The notes under the pieces: model-generated
Database searches by the model: none
What the model saw: the letters and a program-made list of their open reading frames with translations, nothing else
What the model was told of the DNA's origin: nothing
Made by a program: the position numbers and the translations under genes
In this document: piece after piece, positions 6,455 through 60,300 of the stretch
Position numbering within the stretch: the first letter of the stretch is position 1
Layout of the letters: each line of letters starts with the position of its first letter
Origin: Neelides folsomi
Taxonomy: Eukaryota > Arthropoda > Collembola > Neelipleona > Neelidae
Direction: 5' to 3'
DNA length: 64,000 nucleotides
Assembly (NCBI GenBank): GCA_034687125.1
Contig: JAQGBZ010000088.1
Coordinates: 124,001-188,000, forward strand

Positions 6455-9086
6455 GTTATTCTATAGATATAACGGAGTTCAACGTTACAAAATAAGACTT
6501 TTTTCCATCTCTCCGAGTCTTGAGCTGGAATTGGTAGCCATGTGGCAAATCTTTTCATCTCAACTTTTAATCTAAATTCTCTCAAAGCCCTCTCTCATCC
6601 AACTTCCAAATCGTCAAATTTATACATCAGCTGCTATATCGTCGTTAAAATATGAATTTGGCATGCAGTCATGCATGCATTAAAAAACTTACAGATTCGC
6701 TCAAGCTGACCATTCCGAATTAAAAATGTGCTTAGCATTTGTGCAATTTCCGTCTCCTTCATAAATCCTTTTCTTTCTTGATCTTTAAATCTTATTGATT
6801 TCTTTCCCGATGGAATCTCTCTTGTTTATTCTTTTCTCGCTCCGGATTTGAAGAAACGACATGAACCACTCCACGTGAGACTCCAAAAGGCCTACTCCAA
6901 ATCGAGAGAGAAAAAACAAAATCCGTGGATCGGAATTTCGGAATGGACCATGAGAGCAGAAAGAGGAGCTTCAAATGTAGAGTGGGTGGCGAGAGGGAAG
7001 AAAAACACTTGTTTAAAAGTCAAGAATTCACATTTCGACAGATGTCTAGTTAAATAATATATATAAATAGATGTAAAGGGCGAGGATGAAAAGGATCGAG
7101 GGCTTTCCACAATAAAAAACGTGGACGAGAACGACGAGAAGACAGTGAAATTGACAAGATAAGAAATTGGCTTTGTATTTCGAGTTCACGCGTCCGCCCA
7201 GTTTAGTCATTGGCCAAAAGGCGAAGTGTCGCATGAGAAAAGGAAATATTTCTCTATTTATTTCCCATCTCTAACAATAAGTTGTAGCTATATCCCTCAT
7301 ACTTATCTTGCATCGGACTAACATTCATCCATTGGAGTTGAAGGTTAGGCTCGAGGAATTTAGTTCACGTCCTCGCCCTCCGCATGGGGATATTTCACCA
7401 TAATAGAATGAGGAAACGTGCACATTGCCCGATGGGATTGTATGTATTATGCATTTGTTCCAAAGGTTCCTTCACTTTCCTTCGAACCTGAATGGCCCAA
7501 GAAAACAAAATTGGATTTAATCCATTCCTCCGCCCACAATAACAATACTATTACAAGTTAAATAAGCATTAAGATAAGGTAAGCATGGATGTTTTGCGAG
7601 TAATATTAAAGATTAAAATAAGCTCCCGTCCCTATAATGCAATTTCTGTGTAGGAGTTGATGTAAGTACGGCAGCTTTTCGACTCATTCTATATCTGTAA
7701 ATAGCACAAACAAGGGAACAGCTTTACTTTCTCTAAAAGACAGTTAGGATAGGTCTGGAGGATTTTCTCTCATCTTACATCCATATTAATATTATGTTAC
7801 CTATATTAGATTTCCATAAATATGAGGTCGTATGTCGTTGGGAAGCATTGGAAGGGAAATGCAAGTTTCCGAGCATTTAAGCAGGAAGCGATGAGTAATG
7901 ATGTTATTCGTATGTATTTGGGAAATTACATTTCAATTATTTCGCAGACTAGTCTCGCATTTATTATTTACTTCTCTTCGCCGTAATCCTCTTATTATTG
8001 ACGTTGGCTCATAATCTCCGGAACAGCTTTTCCTGGAGAGGGAAGATAAAGGAGAGAGCGTTTTATATAGCCACTAAACTCCCGACTTGAGGAAAATGAA
8101 AATACATCACATGTATTTCTTTTTGTCTTTCAACTCTTTTGTCGCATTCTGTCAAAGAGAGAAGTAGGGTAGTATTGTTATATATCCAAGTATTTGTAAA
8201 CCTCTTAATCTTGTTCACTCTCCTGAAGGGAGAATAAGGAGAAAAAAGGAGCGGAAGAAGGGGCGGAAGTGTATTTATCAAAGGATGTTTATTGCCCTAG
8301 GACTCTCTCTTTTTCTTTCTCCCAGCCTTCCTTCCTCGCTCCCAACTCCCCCATCAGAGATCTCATAAGGATGAGGGAGAAAAGGAAGTTTTCTCCCTTC
8401 ACTCACTCCTTTCCACTATAATGGATCCTTAAAGCCTCTTTCTCACGCCTTTCTTCCCCTGCCACGAGGGAAGAGAAATATGGGGCCTGTCAGGGAATGA
8501 GAAAAGGGATGGACACCAAAATTGCCATCATCGACTCAAATGAAGGGAGCCCCAGACGGCGTCAATCAGTCGACTCTTTCACTATCAAATCCCCAAATTA
8601 CGGCTCTATTTATGGCTTTTCCCTGAATCTCAATTCTCAATGAATCTTCATCATGGGGCGGGTAAGGGAATCAGATGAAAGTTTTCCAGGTCCCTAGATC
8701 CTCTCAAGAAGAGCCTGCGTTCTCAATTCTATAATAACTTTTCCACTCGAAAACCCGTGGAGCTCTCCAGCAGCCAGGGAAGCCTCTCATCCCCTCCAAG
8801 CTCAATTCCTCGACTTCTGGATAAACTTTTTCTCATGCCGGGCAAAGTCAAGTCTATTCATTTACCTTTAACTCACTTCACTCACTCACAAAGAGCGGGA
8901 TGGGGGGAGTTGGGGAACTTACTCCGCCAACCCCGTTGATGAAAGTGGAAATAGAGAGATGAGAAACTTTTAGCTCAATTATGTCTCGTATTCAAAAATT
9001 TAAACCCTCGGTTGGTAGCCACGAGGCCAGGACAGGTCGGCGGCATAAGAGACTTAAGGGAATTGAAAAAAAGTTGAAAAAAAATT
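6455..9086. other. Intergenic, no gene seen
   Basis: Mostly AT-rich sequence with short GC-richer patches, between the TMEM192-like start and the tRNA. Open frames are short (under about 75 codons) and have no family resemblance or splice context. A small palindromic run of ATGCATGC occurs near 6661-6680. The TMEM192-like promoter should lie just above 6454. Confidence 0.4.
9077..9084 (-). terminator. RNA polymerase III terminator of tRNA-Ser
   Basis: Read on the minus strand, a run of eight T residues begins three bases after the tRNA discriminator base. This is the expected Pol III stop signal. A second T-run follows a few bases further on as a back-up. Confidence 0.85.
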
Positions 9087-9168
9087 CGAAGTCGGCAGGA
9101 CTCGAACCTGCGCGGACAGAGTCCATTGGATTTCTAGTCCAACGCCTTAACCACTCGGCCACGACTTC
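9087..9168 (-). tRNA. tRNA-Ser, anticodon AGA
   Basis: Cytosolic serine tRNA decoding UCU (and UCC/UCA after A-to-I editing at position 34). Seen on the minus strand: acceptor stem GAAGTCG pairing with CGACTTC, then discriminator G, which is the usual serine identity base. The D arm holds an A box (TGGCCGAGTGG). The anticodon loop reads CT-AGA-AA flanked by a GGA/TCC stem. The variable arm is long, as expected of serine tRNA. The T arm contains the perfect B box GGTTCGAACC. There is no intron. Length is 82 nt without CCA. Confidence 0.97.
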
Positions 9169-11517
9169 GCTCTTGGAGTATTTGAGTAAGATAGGGGCCC
9201 ATGAAGGAAGGGAATTGGGTTGTGGGTTAAACCAAGGGGGAACTTCGCACCAAAAATCTCCCTCTGCCTCCCATCAGCTGCTGAGGTCTTTGAAGACGAC
9301 TCCTCACCCACCTGTGACCTACTATCTCTCACCCGTCACCTCTCAGCCCGACATCCCGGAAGATTATTTTGGAAGGTAAGGAATTTATCCACCCATTATT
9401 CATCTTTTTCTCGCCTCACATATTGTTCTTTATGAACCAAGTTCGCTCATATTTAACATCTAATAAATATTGAGGGCCGGGGGAATAAATTCATTCCTAC
9501 GGATTCCTGTCTCTGGAATTCATCTCGCGAAGAGTGTCTACAGTACTTGGGTTGGAAAGATATTAGAAAAATGTTTATTATAGGAATAGTCATAGTGGCT
9601 CATGTTTTATGGCAAATTGCCTCATCGTTCGTGTCTTATCATCAGGAGCTGTAAGTTGTTATCATCCTTATAGCCTGTATGTTTATATGTCGAGAGCGTA
9701 TACTGCGGCGGGCACAAGGTCATTTCTTAATATAAGGTTGAGTCAGGTTCAATTTACAATATAAATTCTCCTCTATGGCTGCCACAGGGCGAGCGAACAC
9801 AGTTTTTCATTTTTATTTCAATCTCCTCCTCCAATCCGCCGGCCCTTTCGCGAAAGCCGAATTGCAAGCATATTTCCTAGCAGTGGAGAGGGCGAGAAGG
9901 TATTAAACTATTCGAGAGGGGATGATAGTAAACGAATTCTTTTTACGACCACACGGAGCTCGTTGTGAGAGACGGCCTTTACGAACCATCGAATAATATT
10001 CTCCATCCGAGAAAGAATTTATGTGTGTGAGGGAAGGAGTGATAAGATTCAGGAGGGAGATTTATAAAAAGAGAGATATTATCTCCGCTTAAGGTGAGCT
10101 ATTAATACCTTAACTGCTTCTGTGCATGTTCACTTCCATCCAATTTCCAAAATAAATTCTTTACTGGCCCAAAGAATAAGAAAGAAGAAGTCGGATTTCA
10201 CAATAACAATTATTTTATTCCTCTCAAAATCCCCTTTTGTTGTATTTTATTATAAAAATAATTCTTCCTTTTGTACAACTAGAATCGAGGAATCAAGGTA
10301 TACACCAATCGAGGATGCATTATCTTCATACAAAAAGGCATTGGATTGAATTGGGCTGCCAACATAAATCCCTTAATGCTAACTACAACCATACCATCAT
10401 GAAATTCATGATTGGGATAGAATTGGGAAAAGGGAATGGGGTAGGGTGTGCCGAATCAGGGAGCATTATGGGAAATCTGCTGCAGCAGCACATTAGTAAA
10501 ATTAATTATCTTTATAAAGCTTTCATGATTTCCCATACAGCTAAAAATTAGCGAATTCTTTAACGCATTATGGATAGGAAATCCTTTCATAACTTGATTG
10601 GTTGGGAATGTTGGAATACTAAGCACATACCTCTTCTGCATAGTTGAGCCAAAATTATTAAATGTGGGTATTACTTTTGTTGTTTTTTCATCGCTCATTG
10701 AATGGAGAGGGCGGAGATGGGAATTAAAAATGTGATCTCGTAAGATGAGAATCTCGTTGTGTGGTGTGTAATTGAACGAGAGTCGAGATTAATTGGCGAA
10801 GGAATAAAAATATTTTTATAGGTTTAAGAGTGGGTGAGTAGGAGAAAGCATATGGGGAAATGCGGGGGAATAATCTCACATTGCGGCTTCCATGTCAAAG
10901 AACACTTTCATCTGGAATGGAGGATTTGGGCCTATACTCCTAACGTCCCGCACTTTTCCCAATTTGTTCAACTTTGAAATGGGGCTGCCTATTAAAATAA
11001 TTATTAGCCTTCCACTCGTTTCCAACTTTCTCCAAATTCCTCTGGTTTGAGCTCGGGAAGAACTTTGAAGGCCCTTTTTAATTTCTTACAATAGGAGAGG
11101 TTTACCCCTTTCAAGCTCTCAGCTCTCAAACTTTGAACATTATGTAACAATAGCCTGTAATTTTTCCCGAAACGGCTCCCAGATTTAATTCATATGAGCC
11201 CACATTGTGGGCTGCATAAAGAGATTCGCACTGACAGTTGTGGAGACATAACTCTTTCCCTATTGATATTGAGGTCATAAGTGAAGGGTTATTTTGCCCG
11301 TGGAGGATTTATGGGGAGGCGGGACGGAAGTGGGTGGCGGTGAGTTGGATTCCGCGATCCTCCCGCTATCTCTATCGATCCCACCGTACCCGATCAATTC
11401 TCCCTCCATTCTCGGTTATTTTCAGGACAGAGCAGAGGACGAACAACCCGCCGCTCCACAGGAGACAACGTGACACTTGGACCCCTTCAACACTTCTCCA
11501 GCTGAAGACATATCAGG
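9169..11517. other. Intergenic region upstream of SNAP-25
   Basis: Mixed AT-rich sequence without a recognisable gene. Open frames such as 10237-10551 (+) are low-complexity and have no splice support. Sequence just above 11518 is probably the SNAP-25 5' UTR. I could not define a promoter. Confidence 0.4.
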
Positions 11518-14500
11518 ATGCCTGGGCCAGGGGATTATGTGGACTCGTCGGGCGACAGGAATCGGTCCGAACTCCAAGACATTCAACTCAAGACTTCCAC
11601 CGTCACCGACGAGGTAATAACATGTTAAAACTTACTCAAAACCTTTTCAAACTTCCACTCTGGATCCAAGTCATGTTATTCTACAAATAGACCTCCGATA
11701 TTCATAAGTCAACAAAGAGGAAAATAAACTCGATGAGAGTTTCTTTACATTGGACCTCGGTGGAATTTGACGTTTTCCTCTTTCAATAACTGCACAATAA
11801 ACTAATTAAAATGTTCACCAGCCTATGAAACCCTTCTTTAAACAACAAGGATATGCCTTGGAAAACTTAAACGTGCAAACGAGGTTGATAAATATAATAA
11901 TAGGCCATAATTTTGTTGGCCGTCTATTAATTTTTGAGTTATTAATACCATTGTTGAATATTCGATTAAATAAATTAAGGTCTCTTGTAAATTATCTACT
12001 TAAATTGCTCCTTAAAGTCTTAAAAATTAATTTAGGAGTACACTATATTTTATACAGTTAACTATCTACTATATCAGCTTGCGAATTCCATCCTTAATGG
12101 ATTTTTAATATTCATAAAACGGCAATTATGTTCCTTTTATCTTTTGAGTAGAAAATTATTATAAAACATGTGCATATTTAGCTCATTCTTTTAAGTTAAG
12201 TAGTAATTTAGCACTTGTACTTTTACTTTACCATCTATTTATATTTAAGCGTTTATTTTTATAAATTAATGACCTTTTTTACATCAGGGTGTTAGTTGTA
12301 ATAGGTATTTAGAATTGACATTTCATTTTAATGCAGATTTAGTTTGAAAATAAAATCTACATAATTCAGATTAGTCTCCTATAATATAATTTTAACCTTG
12401 ATTTTAATAAAATTGAATATTCTTTACCTCCACGTGTGATACTCGTACTATTCAGCTTTGTCAAACGAGAATAACAATAAAAATCCATTATTACCAGGAA
12501 CAAGAATAAAATGGAAAGACTCCAATAAAATATTTGATAGTTCCCCTAATTTTTTCATTTAAAACAATTCTCCGCGATTAACAAAGACCATTTCTACTTT
12601 AATTCCACTCGAGAATGTGTCCTATTATTGGCATACTTATCAGAAGGATCAAATTTAAATTTAGTTTTGGAAAGCTACATCGCTAAGCTAGCTACTATAT
12701 TTATATACGGAGCACAAGAGGAAGAGATGTAAAGGGAGCAATATGTTGGAAACAAGAATGATTATTGCTCCATCCTTCGAACATTTCGGCCAAATTGGTT
12801 GAACTTGATGGATTTGAAATCTCCTTTTACTTTATAATAGTCCTGTAAACTGAGAGAATGTGTACATAAAGGGAAAAGATAGACAAGAGGGAGAGGAAAT
12901 GAATCATGGAATCTCAGGATGTTTGATTTGCGATCCGAGAAAGGTCAAACGGAGATCTGTCGGCGTAATATGAGAGTTGATGGGAAGCGTGAGGGAAATT
13001 GGGAAATGATGGGGTTGCTAAGAGGAGTGATTAGGTCGGTAAGGACTTTCTCTCCGAATGGGAAATTGATGATTGGGGGGAAAGAGTCCCGAGGGAGCTT
13101 CCGCCTCCCACTCTCACCTCTCTACCTCCCCATCAATCAAATTAGGAGTTTATACGAATGATACCTGTGGGAGCGGAGGCTGAGAGAGATGACCGTCGCA
13201 CCAACTTGGACGCGCATCCTCCCCGCTCCCATTCATCAACCATCCGCGGAGGGCGGAACAACACTTGTTGGTCCCAACATGGAGCACCAGAAGAGGATTT
13301 ACTCCTTCGCCACGGCCGCCCATCTCGAAAATAGGGTCATTTTCTTAACTACTTCCGTCCTTCCCCCTCTTTCCCCTTCCTCCTCTTGGGAGAAATTGTT
13401 TTAGGTAGGGAAACCAGGTAGGACGGGGGTTAATAACGGGAAGTGGAGGGCTTAGGGCGCGGCCATTCACTCACTCTCACAGTACACATGTTATCGGAGA
13501 GGGATGTGAGGATTGGGAATCAATATTATTCTTTTGATTACACGACGAGTCTCGGGCTCTTCCGAGACTTGCCAAAGAGCTCTCCTGAGCAAAGCCCCGG
13601 GAAAGTGGTGAAAGAAGTGAAAGTGGTCAGGTATTTTATGAAGGAGGCTTATGATATTTATTTACGTTAATCCCTTGTTTCCAGTCGTTGGAGAGCACGA
13701 GGCGGATGTTGGTACTTTGCGAGGAGGTGAGTGATTGTAAGGTGTTTTGTTCCCCCTTCATGTTCTTTCCCTCTCTGTTTGTGCTGCGTGTCTCGGCAGA
13801 GCAAAGAGGCAGGGATCCGGACCCTGGTCGCTCTCGACGACCAAGGAGGTGAGTTCTCCCTCCCCTCACCCGTCTCGTCTCTGTGTCCCTGCACCCGCAG
13901 CCCCTCACGCGCTTTCCCTGCCATGCTCCCCCTCCTCACCCTTCTTTTGATTCCCAGAGCCAGGATGCGGGAGCCAAGACGTTGCAATTGCTCGACCACC
14001 AAGGCGGTACTACAACCCTTCACTTTATTTATCTCTTGCACCCCAAACTGCCACCCGAGGAACTCTTCTTTAAACCATGCGTATCCTACACTTTTACATG
14101 TAAACACAATGGATGTTTTTCAACAATTTTTTAATTCCCAACCGATGTATTGATTTTAATGTTTTTCTACCGATGTCATATATAATAATGCACGAATACG
14201 TATGATACGTTTTATATCTTAATTACGTCAATGGTTTGTATTTTTTTTAAATTTTTTATAATTATACAATTACTATTTATCATTAATTGTAATTTAATTA
14301 GTTCTTTACCCCTTTATGTATTTAGGTAATAAGTATTTAGTCTTGTTTAGTGAAGAATTTTTATTATTCCATTTGTAACCATTTAGCTTTTGATGTACCT
14401 TATGTACTTTTGGAGAAAGCATTGAGGATAAATACTTGGCCTGATATGGGGTTAAGTGATAGCTTTCGGTGTAGGAAAAGCTTAAACCCCGCTTCCCAAT

Positions 14501-15172
14501 TAGAGGACCTCAACTGAGAGGTTATTGTAGAACAACTTGACCGGATCGAGGAGGGCATGGACCAGATCAACGAGGAGATGAAGGAGGCCGAAAAGAACCT
14601 CACTGGGATGGAGAAATGCTGCGGTCTCTGCATCCTCCCCTGCAACAAGTGAGTGGGGATCTTTTAGGGTTGTATGAACGATGAATTCCATGGCTCTCTC
14701 CCAGGGCGTCTGACTTCAAGGAGGACGCGAGCACATGGAAAGGGAACGAGGATGGGAAAGTGGTAAACAACCAGCCGACCCGAGTGATGAACGACCGTAA
14801 CGGTGGTTCCGTCGCAGGTGGAGGTGGATACATTGCCAAGTGAGTGTCAATGAGAGAGGTGGAGGGGAGGCGGGATCGATAATTCATCTTCTCCAGGATT
14901 ACCAATGACGCGAGGGAGGAGGAAATGGAGGATAACATGGGCCAAGTGTCTACCATGATCGGTAACCTTCGGAACATGGCGATTGACATGGGGACGGAGA
15001 TTGAGGGCCAGAACAGACAAGTGGATCGGATCAACACAAAGGTGAAGTTTTTTGACGGCGTGTTTGCAATTTGCTCAACAAATGGCTCTTTTTTCTTTTC
15101 TAGGCCTTATCGAATGAGGGAAGGATTTTGAGTGCGAACGAGCGGGCAGTGAAGCTCCTCGGGAAATCATAA
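11518..15172 (+). CDS. Snap25: SNAP-25 (Qbc-SNARE) with alternative exons 3a/3b
   Basis: Presynaptic t-SNARE that gives two helices (Qb, Qc) to the four-helix bundle with syntaxin and synaptobrevin. Exons: 11518-11613, 13685-13726, then 13800-13848 (3a) or 13958-14006 (3b), then 14531-14648, 14705-14839, 14897-15041, 15104-15172. Using one of 3a/3b gives 654 nt, or 217 residues, the usual size. Qb motif: [14 protein letters not shown] in exon 2, then the alternative exon with the zero-layer Gln (Q61), then [17 protein letters not shown]. The linker has four cysteines for palmitoylation (CCGLCILPC). The Qc motif follows ([24 protein letters not shown]). AATAAA is at 15571. The 2.1-kb intron 1 contains no other gene that I can see. 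Identity is very secure; first-exon choice rests on the SELQDI segment and the phase-0 donor. Confidence 0.95.
13800..13848 (+). other. SNAP-25 alternative exon 3a (canonical form)
   Basis: This 49-nt exon (16 codons plus 1 nt) encodes residues 47-62, [16 protein letters not shown], matching the common animal SNAP-25 sequence. The acceptor is tctcggcag and the donor is the strong gtgagt. It carries the ionic zero-layer glutamine of the Qb helix. It is followed after only 109 nt by a second version of itself. Confidence 0.9.
13958..14006 (+). other. SNAP-25 alternative exon 3b (diverged duplicate)
   Basis: Also 49 nt with the same phases as 3a, it encodes [16 protein letters not shown]; 9 of 16 residues equal those of 3a. 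The acceptor has a good pyrimidine tract (cttcttttgattcccag); the donor gtacta is weaker than that of 3a. Gly51, Thr54, Leu58 and the zero-layer Gln61 are kept, while positions 48, 52, 56, 57 and 60 change. Including both exons, or neither, shifts the frame of everything downstream, which implies mutually exclusive use. Expression is inferred, not seen. Confidence 0.82.
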
Positions 15173-17242
15173 TCCGCCTCAGCCGGTGGAGAATGGAACT
15201 CTCATTAGGGAATTAAAGAAGTTCATTAGTGGGGGCCTCGTTAGGGCATCATTCTCCTCAAGATCCAAACGACTCCTTCACTTCTCCAGACCCACGATAC
15301 ATATTATACTATAGAGTATTAAACTCCCCACAAACCTCGGCTTTCCCACATCTAAAACCCTCCGATTCGTCTCGGAAATCAAGTTATTTTTCCTACTCAC
15401 TCCTGCTTGAGACGGAGCTCAGCCCGACTGATTGCGAATTGCGAACACAATCCTTGTAACTTTATTACTAAATACTACACAACACTCAATGTACCTTTGA
15501 CTCAATAATTCAACGTACTGTCTGCAACCTTCCGACCTTAAACCGGCTCCACTTCACATATCCCTCCTTCAATAAAATATCTTCCACTTTTGCAACCGTC
15601 ATGTTTAAATTAAACATATGGCAAATTTAAAAATAAATATCTTACTCGATTCTTATATATCAAACGATACTTTGTAACAATATTCTCTAACTACTAATAC
15701 TACATACATGCTACAATAAAATACAGACTATTGTAATTGCATAAGCTCTTCAAATTACAATGGTATTAAGATTGTCTGCTTACGACTACAATATAATCTT
15801 AATGGATCAAATTAAGAAGGAATTGTTTATTATTTAGAGTAGGTAATTGGCAGTGGAACTGTGCTTTATCTAGATTATGATTCCTTGTTATAATTCTGTA
15901 CGCTCACAATGTGATTGTTTTTAGGGAGAAATGGAAATTATTTATATAAAGCTCTTTTACTTTACCATGATTTTAACTTCGAGATAAATAGTTGTGTATT
16001 ACTCGGTGTATGTGAAATGTTTAAATAATACGTACGTTTATTGTGAATATTCTAAGAAATCTGCTTTAAACAATGTGTTTACACTCTCTATATTATATGA
16101 AACTTTCAAGGTGCTTCTCGACTATAAACACCTTGAGATTAATAAAAAAAACAATTCACTTTCCACTTCTGGCGAAGTGAGAAAGTGGTTGGGCTGAATG
16201 CAATTTCCTCCTTACAATCACCTTTTACTCATCTTGTCGTAAATCGATTCATCCCCATTGAGTCGAAAAGACTCGTATCATATTAGGAGATGAAATTGAA
16301 AATAAATTGAATGTGGTTCGATTCAGGGGATTCTCATTTTCATTTCTCTTGAGGTCGGTTAAGGAGGATTGAGAGGAGGATTTGTCCCCTGAAGAGATTA
16401 CTCGCCTGTGCTGTACCGAAGATCCTTCCTTCCTTCCCGACTCTTACCTAAAATACAGAATTTCTCGGATGGAATTCAACTGTGGTCTCTTTCTATGAGA
16501 GGAAACGGGATTCGGGAAAGGCTTTCTCTCTAATGCTCATTCCTCGTCATTTCATCATTGGCTACTTTACATAAATTGAATGCATAGAATCCCAGAGCCA
16601 ATTCAGACTAATAAAATGCTCAAAGAGCTCGCATACAGATTACAGAATACATCCTTTATAAATGCATTTATACATGAAACGGAGTTGCAATAAAATATCG
16701 TCAGTGCCCATTACAAATGTACATCTCCAAAAAGCTAACTGGAATTGAATTTTGAAACGTAAAGTACCAACTAGAGAAATAGGTGAATATTTAGATTATA
16801 ATTATTTATGTTAGGATAGTTTTTGATGATACTTATACGCCTATCACATTTGTAAATATGTAATGTAATATATAAATACACATACATATTGATGCCAATC
16901 GTTTACTAAACCTAAAAGTATAAAAATGTACCTTTTTGGTATTACCGTTAGATTAAATGAAGACTATATAAAAATATGAAATTGAAGAGTTAGAAAGTGT
17001 AAAATATATTCAAATTAATTTTCTTTTACTTTATTAGACTTAGATTAGATCTTTATCTTTAATTCATTAATTTATTTATGATATTATTTATGATTATGAT
17101 AATAAAAATTTAACTTTATAGCACAATAGTATTCATTAAATATTGTACCCGAATGTATGTAGTGTGTGTACTCATCATTACGTAATATTAGTATATGGTA
17201 TACTGTAATGCTTGATATACAAATAAATATTTTTTGTGTATT
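15173..17242. other. AT-rich intergenic region downstream of SNAP-25
   Basis: It begins with the SNAP-25 3' UTR (AATAAA at 15571, another near 15715). The rest is AT-rich with stops in all frames and no recognisable gene or RNA. Confidence 0.45.
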
Positions 17243-17708
17243 TACCGTCATTGGCCGAAAGATATCCAGGGACATCTTTAAATTTTTCGACCCTTACCCC
17301 CCGATATCTTTCGGGCCCCGGATATCTTAAAATAAATTTACAAAAATGGAATAAAAATTCCCTTTTCTCCTACGGAAGTACCAAGCTTTTTGCCCATATG
17401 GTTAATTAAAATGATATGCAATTCGATTTAAACGACATTTTTAAATGTTCTATTTTAATTTTAATATAAAATCAACAGCAAATTCCTTTTTGGGCATTTT
17501 AAATATAAATATTTAAAGGAAAATGTGATAAAAATGTGTACTATACGTTGTATATTATGCGCTTTTGCTATTAACATACAATATGTACTCGGGTACCCGG
17601 ACATCTTTTGGGTCCCGGATATCTTTAAATAAAATTGCTTCACCCCCCGGATATCCTTCGGACCCGGATATCTTTCGGGCCCCGGATATCTTTCGGCCAA
17701 TGACGGTA
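17243..17708. mobile_element. MITE-like non-autonomous DNA transposon with TA target duplication
   Basis: A 466-bp block bounded by perfect 25-bp inverted repeats at 17243-17267 and 17684-17708. Each starts with TA followed by CCGTCATTGGCCGAAAG, read inward. Taking the outer TA as target-site duplication gives a TA-flanked element, as in Tc1/mariner-type transposons. Subterminal direct repeats of a 16-18-bp unit (GGATATCTTTCGGGCCC and variants) occur at about 17302, 17320, 17599, 17617, 17649, 17665 and 17683. The core is AT-rich with no transposase, so movement would need an enzyme supplied elsewhere. The superfamily is inferred only from the TA duplication. Confidence 0.85.
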
Positions 17709-18553: not shown

Positions 18554-22299
<3,746 letters not shown>

Positions 22300-22801: not shown

Positions 22802-26483
<3,682 letters not shown>

Positions 26484-57376: not shown

Positions 57377-60300
57377 TCACTGCCAGTCGGGGAAGAGGAC
57401 GCGGAAGGAGTCGGGCTCCTCACCCTGCTTCACCACAATGGAGATCGTTACGGCGTTCCCTCCAGCACGCTCATGCTGTGACCGGATGTATTCCTGCGAA
57501 ACCCCATTTGCATTTCCAATTCATTTACAATTCCCTCTTACATCGGACATCTTCAGGGAGTTGGCTCGCTCCTCGGCCGATGCCCCTTTCCCGAGCCAGA
57601 TGAATATCTCGTCCGCTCCCGTGTCCAACACCATCACATCGTCTTCGTTCAAATCCTATCGTTAGAAACAAGCTGTGTAAATTATTCTTTCGCATTCCCC
57701 AACTCTCAGAGCCCTGAGAGTGGGCAGTTTGGGTGAGTGGTGCGTATAGGCATAGGAAATAAACCTCTTTAGTAAAGTTGTGAACTTCGTCCACATCCAG
57801 CTTCGTTGATGGAGGTGTGATACTGCAGTGGAAAAGGCGAGTCGCAAGTGTGGGGCTGTCGTTCTCAAAACTTGCCTTATTGTATTCTCCCTTTCCACTA
57901 AGGAGAGCCCAAAACTCTTCTGGCTCGCTTCCCTCACTAATTTTGCTCGCCGTTCGGTCGGGAGAAACGAGAGCGTCGACCTTTGCTCCCATAGCTTTCT
58001 CCTCTTCCGAAGCCCCTTTCCCGATCCACATGTACGTGACTGAAGGGCCGTCAAGAACGAAGACGTCGTCCGAGTCCAATGAGGCCGCTTTGGGAAGCAC
58101 TTCAATCGCCCGGGTGTCTTCGTCGCAGGTGCCTTGGACTTGGAAGAGCCGTGGGACATTAGAATCATATGTATCATGTTCGCGAACGTTTTTAAATCCG
58201 CTGGCATGTCCCCCGCGGAAAACGATCATTTTCCCTTTAAAAACACGTAGGAAATGGGCCGGTTCGTGTCCTTGGAGAACCCTCACTTGGACAGCTCGAC
58301 CCCCAAGCTCATCATCCAATCTCAGGGTTTGAAGGGCCGCGGCCGCCTTTTCGTCCTGGCTGCTATCCACTCCCTGGACATAAAAAGTTAATTGCTTTCA
58401 ATCCGTTTTTATATATGTTTTAATCTCCTCTCCGGCAAAGGAGGCCGGACGAGGTTCAGGTTGAGTCGAAGGATTAAGGGAATTGCCTGCCAAAAGTAGA
58501 GGATGTAGTTTTCCCTTCCACTTTTCTCCTTGTACGTGTATTTGAGAACGTAGGAGTCTCCGCCGAAGAACATGCCGTGTTTCTCTGGGGGAACCGGAGC
58601 GAGCTCAAAGTTCTCGATCCGCCAAAGCTCAGTTTTCCCCGTTCCATCGTCGGGGCAGAAACCAAGGGCCTTGCCGAGATTCTTCAATAGCTTTCGCAAC
58701 TTTTCCTTGTCGTTCCCCGCGTCTCGAATCTTTTCCCCGAGAACCGGAGTGCTTGCTGAAGTTTATAAGGAACTCGAGTTAATTAATGGGATCCAAGGAC
58801 AGGGAGTTAAAGATATACCGGCGATCTTCTCCATTGTGTACACTTTCCCAATGATGGGCGGAGAGTCGTCCGCCTCCTTCCATACAGTGAAGTATTGCTT
58901 GAAGGCAGGAGGTTCGCCGTCGTCCACTACGCGTTGGATCTGTGAAGAAGACGGAGCTCTGGCCCTTTAACTTCTCCACTCCCCCGCTTTCACTTACCCT
59001 CGTCCATTGTGGGTAGTTGTTTTGGGTCAAGAAGCCTTCGGCCGATTTCATGGCATGGGCCTTCTCGTCCCTCGTGCACTTCCGTCCAATCCATACAAAG
59101 ATTCCTGACTTGCCCGCATCAAGGATGTAGCAATCCTATATATATGAAATCAACGTCTCAGCCGAATTCCTCACCGACAACCAAAAATGTGCCAGAAAAC
59201 AAATACCGAATTCAGTAACCATCAAAAGCAAAAACCCGTTTTAATCTTGTTTACAACCCTCTTAAGCTAGTCAAAATTTTGTTAGTGATTATCATAATAA
59301 ATAATTGCCCATTTCACTCATTTGTATGGGGATATAAAGGGCACTTGGCTCACGAAATGCTTCGAACCCAAAAGGACTCGAATATTGAAACTTGTTAAAT
59401 AAATACTTGAGGAAAATTTTTGTCAACGCCCTTGGTTTGAGTGCATAAGATATAAATATAGTAGTTACATAATGGACCAATGCTCGAGTGGAGCTATTTA
59501 ATAATCAAATGAATTTTGTAAAGAAGCAGTTTGGATGTAAATAGGGTTAATTAGCTCTTGAAAAACACTCTTGAATTCAAATAAGCATAAGGGGAAAATC
59601 TATATACAGATTAAATAAGTAGGTATTATGTAATGCATGACTAACCTCGCCTCCGTCCCCCTCCTTCGTTCCGTCATGTTAATGAAAGAAAACGTCTCTA
59701 TATTAGGCATATCATCATTCCACTCTCAACATATTTCTCATATCTCTCACAAACTCATAATGCTCCGAGAAAACTTCACGCCAAATGAGTTGCGAGGAAA
59801 AGTGTTCGCTTGCCTGAGATTGAAGCATTTGTCTCTTCAGAGGCTTCTCCCCCACTTTCTCCACCTTCACCACCCCGGAAGAGTCGCTGACGTGGAAGAG
59901 ACTCACGGTGCTCTGGAGTTGACACTTGTTCAGCCTTTTTCTCATCCCCTTAACCTCACCTCTGCCTGCTTCTCGAACACCACGTCGTCGTCTGTCGGGG
60001 GAGGGTCGGCCATTTCAGCTCTTGACCCTCCGCCAAGAGCTGTGAAGAAATCCGCTACGTCCTCTTCGCTCGAGCTGGGTTCTGAAATTAATTAATGTTT
60101 TCCAAATCCGATTAGTCAAATGGAAACGAACCGATGACTGTGATTTTGAGTCGGCCGCCATGGTCCTGGTCTCGGATTTGGTTCGCTGCTTGGATCGCCT
60201 TCAGCCGTTCTGTTCGCTTGCTGTAGCGCCCGACATAGACGAAGAGCTTTTTGGGAGTATCCAGGACGAAGCAATCTCCCTTATTCATCGACTTCACACT

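Follow-up and report, generated by a model that had tools for sequence, protein, structure and literature searches.

The duplicated exon of vertebrate SNAP-25 genes is 118 nt long and encodes residues 56-94. Its two copies in Snap25, exon 5a and exon 5b, differ at nine of 39 residues, located at the end of helix 1 and in the linker, and the account in PMC2581893 places the duplicated exon 5 in bony fish and not in Torpedo or Drosophila. Convergent tandem exon duplication has been described for 27 orthologous gene families in human and Drosophila, among which the calcium channels duplicate different exons (PMC9741552), and mutually exclusive exons 13A and 13B are described in Drosophila tomosyn (PMC8612732). 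A human survey of mutually exclusive exons refers to SNAP-25, in the passages concerned, only as the known vertebrate case (PMC5740500). Convergent tandem exon duplication as such is known; for the SNAP-25 site described here, no report or other precedent was found among the papers listed from the open-licence literature, which is a weak negative.

The locus compared here lies in a 64,000-nt stretch of the genome of the collembolan Neelides folsomi (GenBank assembly GCA_034687125.1, contig JAQGBZ010000088.1, positions 124,001 to 188,000 of the forward strand), referred to below as the window. In-silico splicing yielded an intact SNAP-25 gene at window positions 11518-15172 (+), with seven coding exons, the third of which is present in two versions (3a and 3b), and a product of 217 aa (Table 1). 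Solved SNAP-25 chains matched query residues 15-215 of the 217 (best E value 7.9e-68). The Pfam family PF00835 matched with 71.2 bits against a cut-off of 25 and, since this match covers residues 99-153 only, it provides no test of exon 3. The zero-layer glutamine is present in both 3a and 3b, and the linker reads CCGLCILPC. The predicted product, which combines two SNARE helices, the zero-layer glutamine and a cysteine-bearing linker, is a SNAP-25 (Qbc SNARE).

Table 1. Features of the SNAP-25 gene, in window coordinates.
Feature	Position	Strand	Basis
Coding exon 1 (MPGPGDYV...TVTDE)	11518..11613	+	Splicing; solved SNAP-25 match begins at query residue 15
Coding exon 2, 42 nt, 14 residues	13685..13726	+	Splicing; solved-chain alignment
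Coding exon 3a, 49 nt, 16 residues, standard version	13800..13848	+	16/16 residues identical to SNAP-25 on contig C319
Intron between 3a and 3b, 109 nt, 77% pyrimidine	13849..13957	+	Length and composition
Coding exon 3b, 49 nt, 16 residues, duplicate with changed surface residues, donor gtacta	13958..14006	+	Splicing; comparison with 3a
Coding exon 4, 118 nt, single, counterpart of the vertebrate duplicated exon	14531..14648	+	Splicing; scan for copies
Coding exon 5	14705..14839	+	Splicing
Coding exon 6, start of second (Qc) helix	14897..15041	+	Splicing; solved-chain alignment
Coding exon 7 with stop codon	15104..15172	+	Splicing

The initial annotation had described two consecutive exons of identical length and phase, separated by 109 nt and each equipped with splice sites, and this was confirmed, with AG before and GT after both exons. 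Its count of 9 identical residues among 16 was reproduced (30 of 49 bases are identical), and its argument that only one of the two can be used per mRNA was upheld by splicing in silico: a transcript with just one of 3a and 3b has an open frame of 654 nt (217 aa plus stop), and transcripts with both exons (703 nt) or with neither (605 nt) run into an early stop in exon 4. After double inclusion this stop comes close to the beginning of exon 4, and three introns follow it. Judged from sequence, the two exons are thus homologous neighbours of equal phase and length under a one-of-two frame rule, which is the arrangement of mutually exclusive tandem exons. The pair resembles vertebrate SNAP-25a/b in belonging to the same gene family, in consisting of tandem exons that touch the first SNARE helix, and in one-of-two use, which is described for the vertebrate exons (PMC2581893) and predicted here by the frame logic. 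It had also been proposed that the pair stands at a different place from exon 5a/5b, and this was borne out: the exon duplicated in vertebrates is single here, as claimed, a scan of 11000-16000 having found no second exon 4 (best other stretch 10/38 residues), whereas the preceding 49-nt exon is duplicated.

By alignment to solved SNAP-25, the query residue minus 8 gives the human residue in the first helix, so that exon 3 corresponds to residues 39-54 in the human numbering, with codon 55 split across the junction. Relative to 3a, 3b carries K40Q, E41D, I44A, R45K, V48Q, A49L and D52H; positions 39, 42, 43, 46, 47, 50, 51, 53 and 54 are unchanged. The core layer positions within the exon were placed at 39, 43, 46, 50 and 53 from Q53, which is the zero layer, and by the 3-4 heptad spacing from I67, which is layer +4 of SNAP-25 (PMC10911398). 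The stretch of the first SNARE helix encoded by the exon carries layers -4 to 0 on the inner side, and its outer side makes up much of the primary interface with synaptotagmin-1; all five layer positions are unchanged in 3b (hypergeometric p 0.029 on 16 codons). PMC8967716 singles out K40, D51, E52, E55, Q56 and D166 as important for the primary interface, and V48 is part of its hydrophobic patch (PMC10911398). Interface positions 40, 48 and 52 are altered in 3b; positions 51, 55 and 56 are retained, as is the D166 equivalent according to the solved-chain alignment. Interface positions within the exon (40, 47, 48, 51 and 52) are changed in 3/5 cases against 7/16 overall; they are not over-represented, so the case rests on the identity of the changed residues.

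Several published alterations affect these residues or their neighbours. The V48F substitution reduces the docking of Syt1/VAMP2 vesicles, increases spontaneous release and makes evoked release less synchronous; it also promotes the association of SNAREs and reduces the barrier to fusion (PMC10911398). D51A/E52A/E55A weakens C2B binding and makes SNARE complexes less SDS-resistant (PMC4878868), and K40A is a component of a five-fold mutant designed against the interface (PMC9811660). The stapled peptide SP9, derived from SNAP-25A residues 37-53 and built to disrupt the primary interface, suppressed calcium-triggered fusion, and the unstapled form of the peptide left mucin secretion unaffected (PMC8967716). 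At or near the primary interface, SNAP-23 differs from SNAP-25A by K40Q, L47I and V48T (PMC8967716). It is like 3b in having K40Q and a polar residue at 48 and unlike it in that SNAP-23 and SNAP-25 are separate vertebrate genes, whereas 3b is an exchangeable exon in which L47 is kept and residue 52 is changed.

A C2B query against the genome returned 25 match rows, and three C2B domains (contigs C511, C51 and C15) were examined. Their residues were numbered by the rat synaptotagmin scheme. On the synaptotagmin side, the interface is formed by R281, E295, Y338, R398 and R399 (PMC8967716); the equivalents of all five are retained in the alignments of 3/3 examined domains, so the interface is likely to be in use in this animal.

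Taken as a pair, 3a and 3b are very probably functional mutually exclusive exons, and it is highly likely that both are used. Given such use, the chance that the synaptotagmin interface is the property being tuned is roughly even. The reading in which the choice of exon gives SNAP-25 either a standard synaptotagmin interface or one that is weakened or re-targeted is consequently put at somewhat short of even, because the two estimates, for use of both exons and for tuning of the interface, were combined. In such a switch, a splicing regulator would choose between 3a and 3b according to cell type or stage, and products containing both exons or neither would be discarded through the frameshift and nonsense-mediated decay. 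Since its five layers are intact and positions 40, 48 and 52 are changed (K40 to Q, V48 to Q, acidic 52 to H), 3b should allow SNARE zippering to persist and sensor binding to weaken or shift: SNAP-25 made with 3b would bind the calcium sensor less well or prefer another synaptotagmin, and release might become less clamped, less synchronous or paired with another synaptotagmin. The tentative picture is of an arthropod splicing switch, in which a 49-nt duplicate swaps the synaptotagmin-docking face with the SNARE zipper left intact, and one gene could supply both a sensor-coupled and an uncoupled or differently coupled fusion machinery.

If the switch is real, it would be a natural experiment in which residues 40, 48 and 52, akin to those altered in laboratories and in human disease alleles, are placed under splicing control, and the contribution of the primary interface alone to synchronous as against asynchronous release could be tested directly in an animal. 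SNAP-25 would also join the genes in which different exons are duplicated in vertebrates and arthropods for isoform tuning. The convergent duplications, such as that of the cacophony exon for Ca-beta binding, resemble this locus in that different exons of orthologous genes were duplicated independently in human and Drosophila and a partner-binding region is swapped (PMC9741552). They differ from it in that "SNAP25" has 0 occurrences in the main text of that survey (PMC9741552). In Drosophila tomosyn, 13A/13B are likewise mutually exclusive exons of an arthropod gene for the release machinery, but the gene is another one and its exons encode a WD40 scaffold loop, not a SNARE helix (PMC8612732).

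The main point against an interface switch is the weak donor of 3b, and 3b is also seen in one gene of one genome. Moreover, neither V48F nor D51A/E52A/E55A is a pure loss of Syt1 binding. The exons might instead be truly mutually exclusive and tune another property, such as the rate or stability of SNARE assembly, contacts with complexin, Munc18 or tomosyn, or disassembly by NSF; this is possible, if on the doubtful side. Two of the seven surface changes, I44A and A49L, may affect the stability of the helix or the binding of other partners. In the vertebrate pair the tuning goes through different residues, which lie where helix 1 ends and in the linker, and mice that lack SNAP-25b have impaired short-term plasticity (PMC2581893). 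The added effect of V48F on SNARE association (PMC10911398) points the same way. Against this, the exon nearly coincides with residues 37-53, the source of the interface-disrupting stapled peptide, and three of the changes strike named interface residues (PMC8967716).

It was also considered that 3b is a relic, once used or never used, which is now decaying while 3a alone is spliced in. By U1 pairing energy, its donor (GCG/gtacta) is the weakest of the seven in the gene and ranks 15th among the 18 donors of the three SNAP-25 genes of the genome, the other two of which were found without 3b. A weak donor can mean either a regulated or a dying exon, and the acceptor tract of 3b has the most pyrimidines among the gene's seven (17/20). 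When 16-codon frames on both strands of the window were scanned against 3a, 3a itself scored 16/16, 3b 9/16 and the next best frame 6/16, and first-order Markov randomisation of the window, repeated 20 times, gave 8/16 at best; on these scores 3b is a true duplicate of 3a, not a chance match. No further copies of exon 3 were found in 11000-16000. The exon pair aligned with z 5.4, equalled by 0/500 shuffled pairs, and the 60-nt intron flanks of the two exons were at background (upstream z -1.1, 429/500 shuffles as good; downstream z 1.3, 58/500; ungapped identity 19/60 and 14/60). Divergence between 3a and 3b was 0.69 per silent site (pS) and 0.31 per replacement site (pN), with a Fisher value of 0.041 on 16 codons only, and when unselected drift to the same base identity was simulated in 20,000 runs, indels ignored, the frame stayed open and 9 or more residues were kept in 0.87% of them. 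These statistics on purifying selection are modest (16 codons) but concordant, and 3b looks like an old duplicate maintained as a coding exon. A relic is thus improbable: 3b has no stop or indel, its GT-AG borders are intact, its replacements are restrained while its flanks are at background, and drift seldom reaches the same state.

Assembly duplication was ruled out by the single 100% match obtained for region 13640-14660, which is single-copy, the other three match rows being single-exon matches in C319. A scan of viral_contigs for relatives gave 20 pattern matches and 0 true relatives.

A role of 3b as a switch-off exon, whose joint inclusion with 3a would lower SNAP-25 through nonsense-mediated decay with the 3b protein of little importance, agrees with the position of the double-inclusion stop ahead of three introns but is very improbable, since a pure poison exon needs no conserved frame and the 3b protein is constrained, with its core layers intact.

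Mutually exclusive choice is enforced in some genes by docking and selector RNA pairing or by an intron too short to be spliced, and neither device is obligatory. Steric exclusion of joint splicing is unlikely for 3a and 3b, since four other introns of the gene (56, 57, 62 and 73 nt) are shorter still than the 109-nt intron between them. Pairing between the 3a-3b intron and the intron from 3b to exon 4 gave z -3.3, with 0/100 whole-intron shuffles as good, against z -0.3 and 0.6 for the other two intron pairs. This candidate device was dropped because two controls removed the signal: eight local windows gave z -1.2 to 0.8, and 107/150 random 524-nt stretches of the window paired equally well or better. 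The pyrimidine-rich intron between the exons would suit a pyrimidine-tract-binding regulator.

The genome searched comprised 75.1 Mb in 840 contigs, and three SNAP-25 genes were found in all. The gene on C319 has one 49-nt exon 3, whose protein sequence is identical to that of 3a, and in the gene on C75 exons 3 and 4 are fused (194 nt). From start to stop codon, a second exon 3 was absent from both, the next best stretch sharing 6/16 residues in each. Because of the C319 identity and these two scans, 3a was regarded as the standard form and the duplicate as present in one of the three genes; a search of the genome with the 3b peptide returned 3b alone. Silent-site divergence (pS) was 0.69 for 3a-3b, 0.75 for 3a-C319 and 0.92 for 3b-C319, and, silent sites being almost saturated, an attempt to date the exon duplication against the divergence of the SNAP-25 genes failed. 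The divergent third gene (C75, 2307-3628 (-), L005) has, besides its fused exons 3 and 4, an extended cysteine linker, SLFWYVFCECCGTC, and its first intron is probably GC-AG. Beside the three SNAP-25 genes, the genome holds the three synaptotagmin-1-like C2B domains (L022, L023 and L024, on contigs C511, C51 and C15); the two sets may reflect either expansions in the lineage or the remains of a larger duplication. Among the mitochondrial genes, of which COX1 was identified by a family search and the others by eye from their translations, the order is nad2-cox1-cox2-atp6-cox3-nad3 on one strand with nad1 on the other, and about 40 nt separate cox1 from cox2. This arrangement fits the arthropod ground pattern lacking the pancrustacean tRNA-Leu at the cox1-cox2 boundary, and ARAGORN, run with bacterial settings, detected no tRNA there.

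Other features were noted in the window around the SNAP-25 gene. A tRNA-Ser (anticodon AGA) lies upstream of it at 9086-9169 on the minus strand, and neighbouring coding stretches encode a rhodopsin-type GPCR (419-1120, -), a PCAF_N domain (19095-19748, +), SH3-SH2 domains with the beginning of a tyrosine kinase domain (24589-25332, +) and gelsolin repeats (57528-58397, -). At 17243-17708 there is a short element whose 29-nt inverted ends are 97% complementary and lie 408 nt apart, which carries seven copies of a 17-nt unit of the CCCCGGATATCCTTCGG type, within it or at its ends, and which looks like a small non-autonomous transposon.
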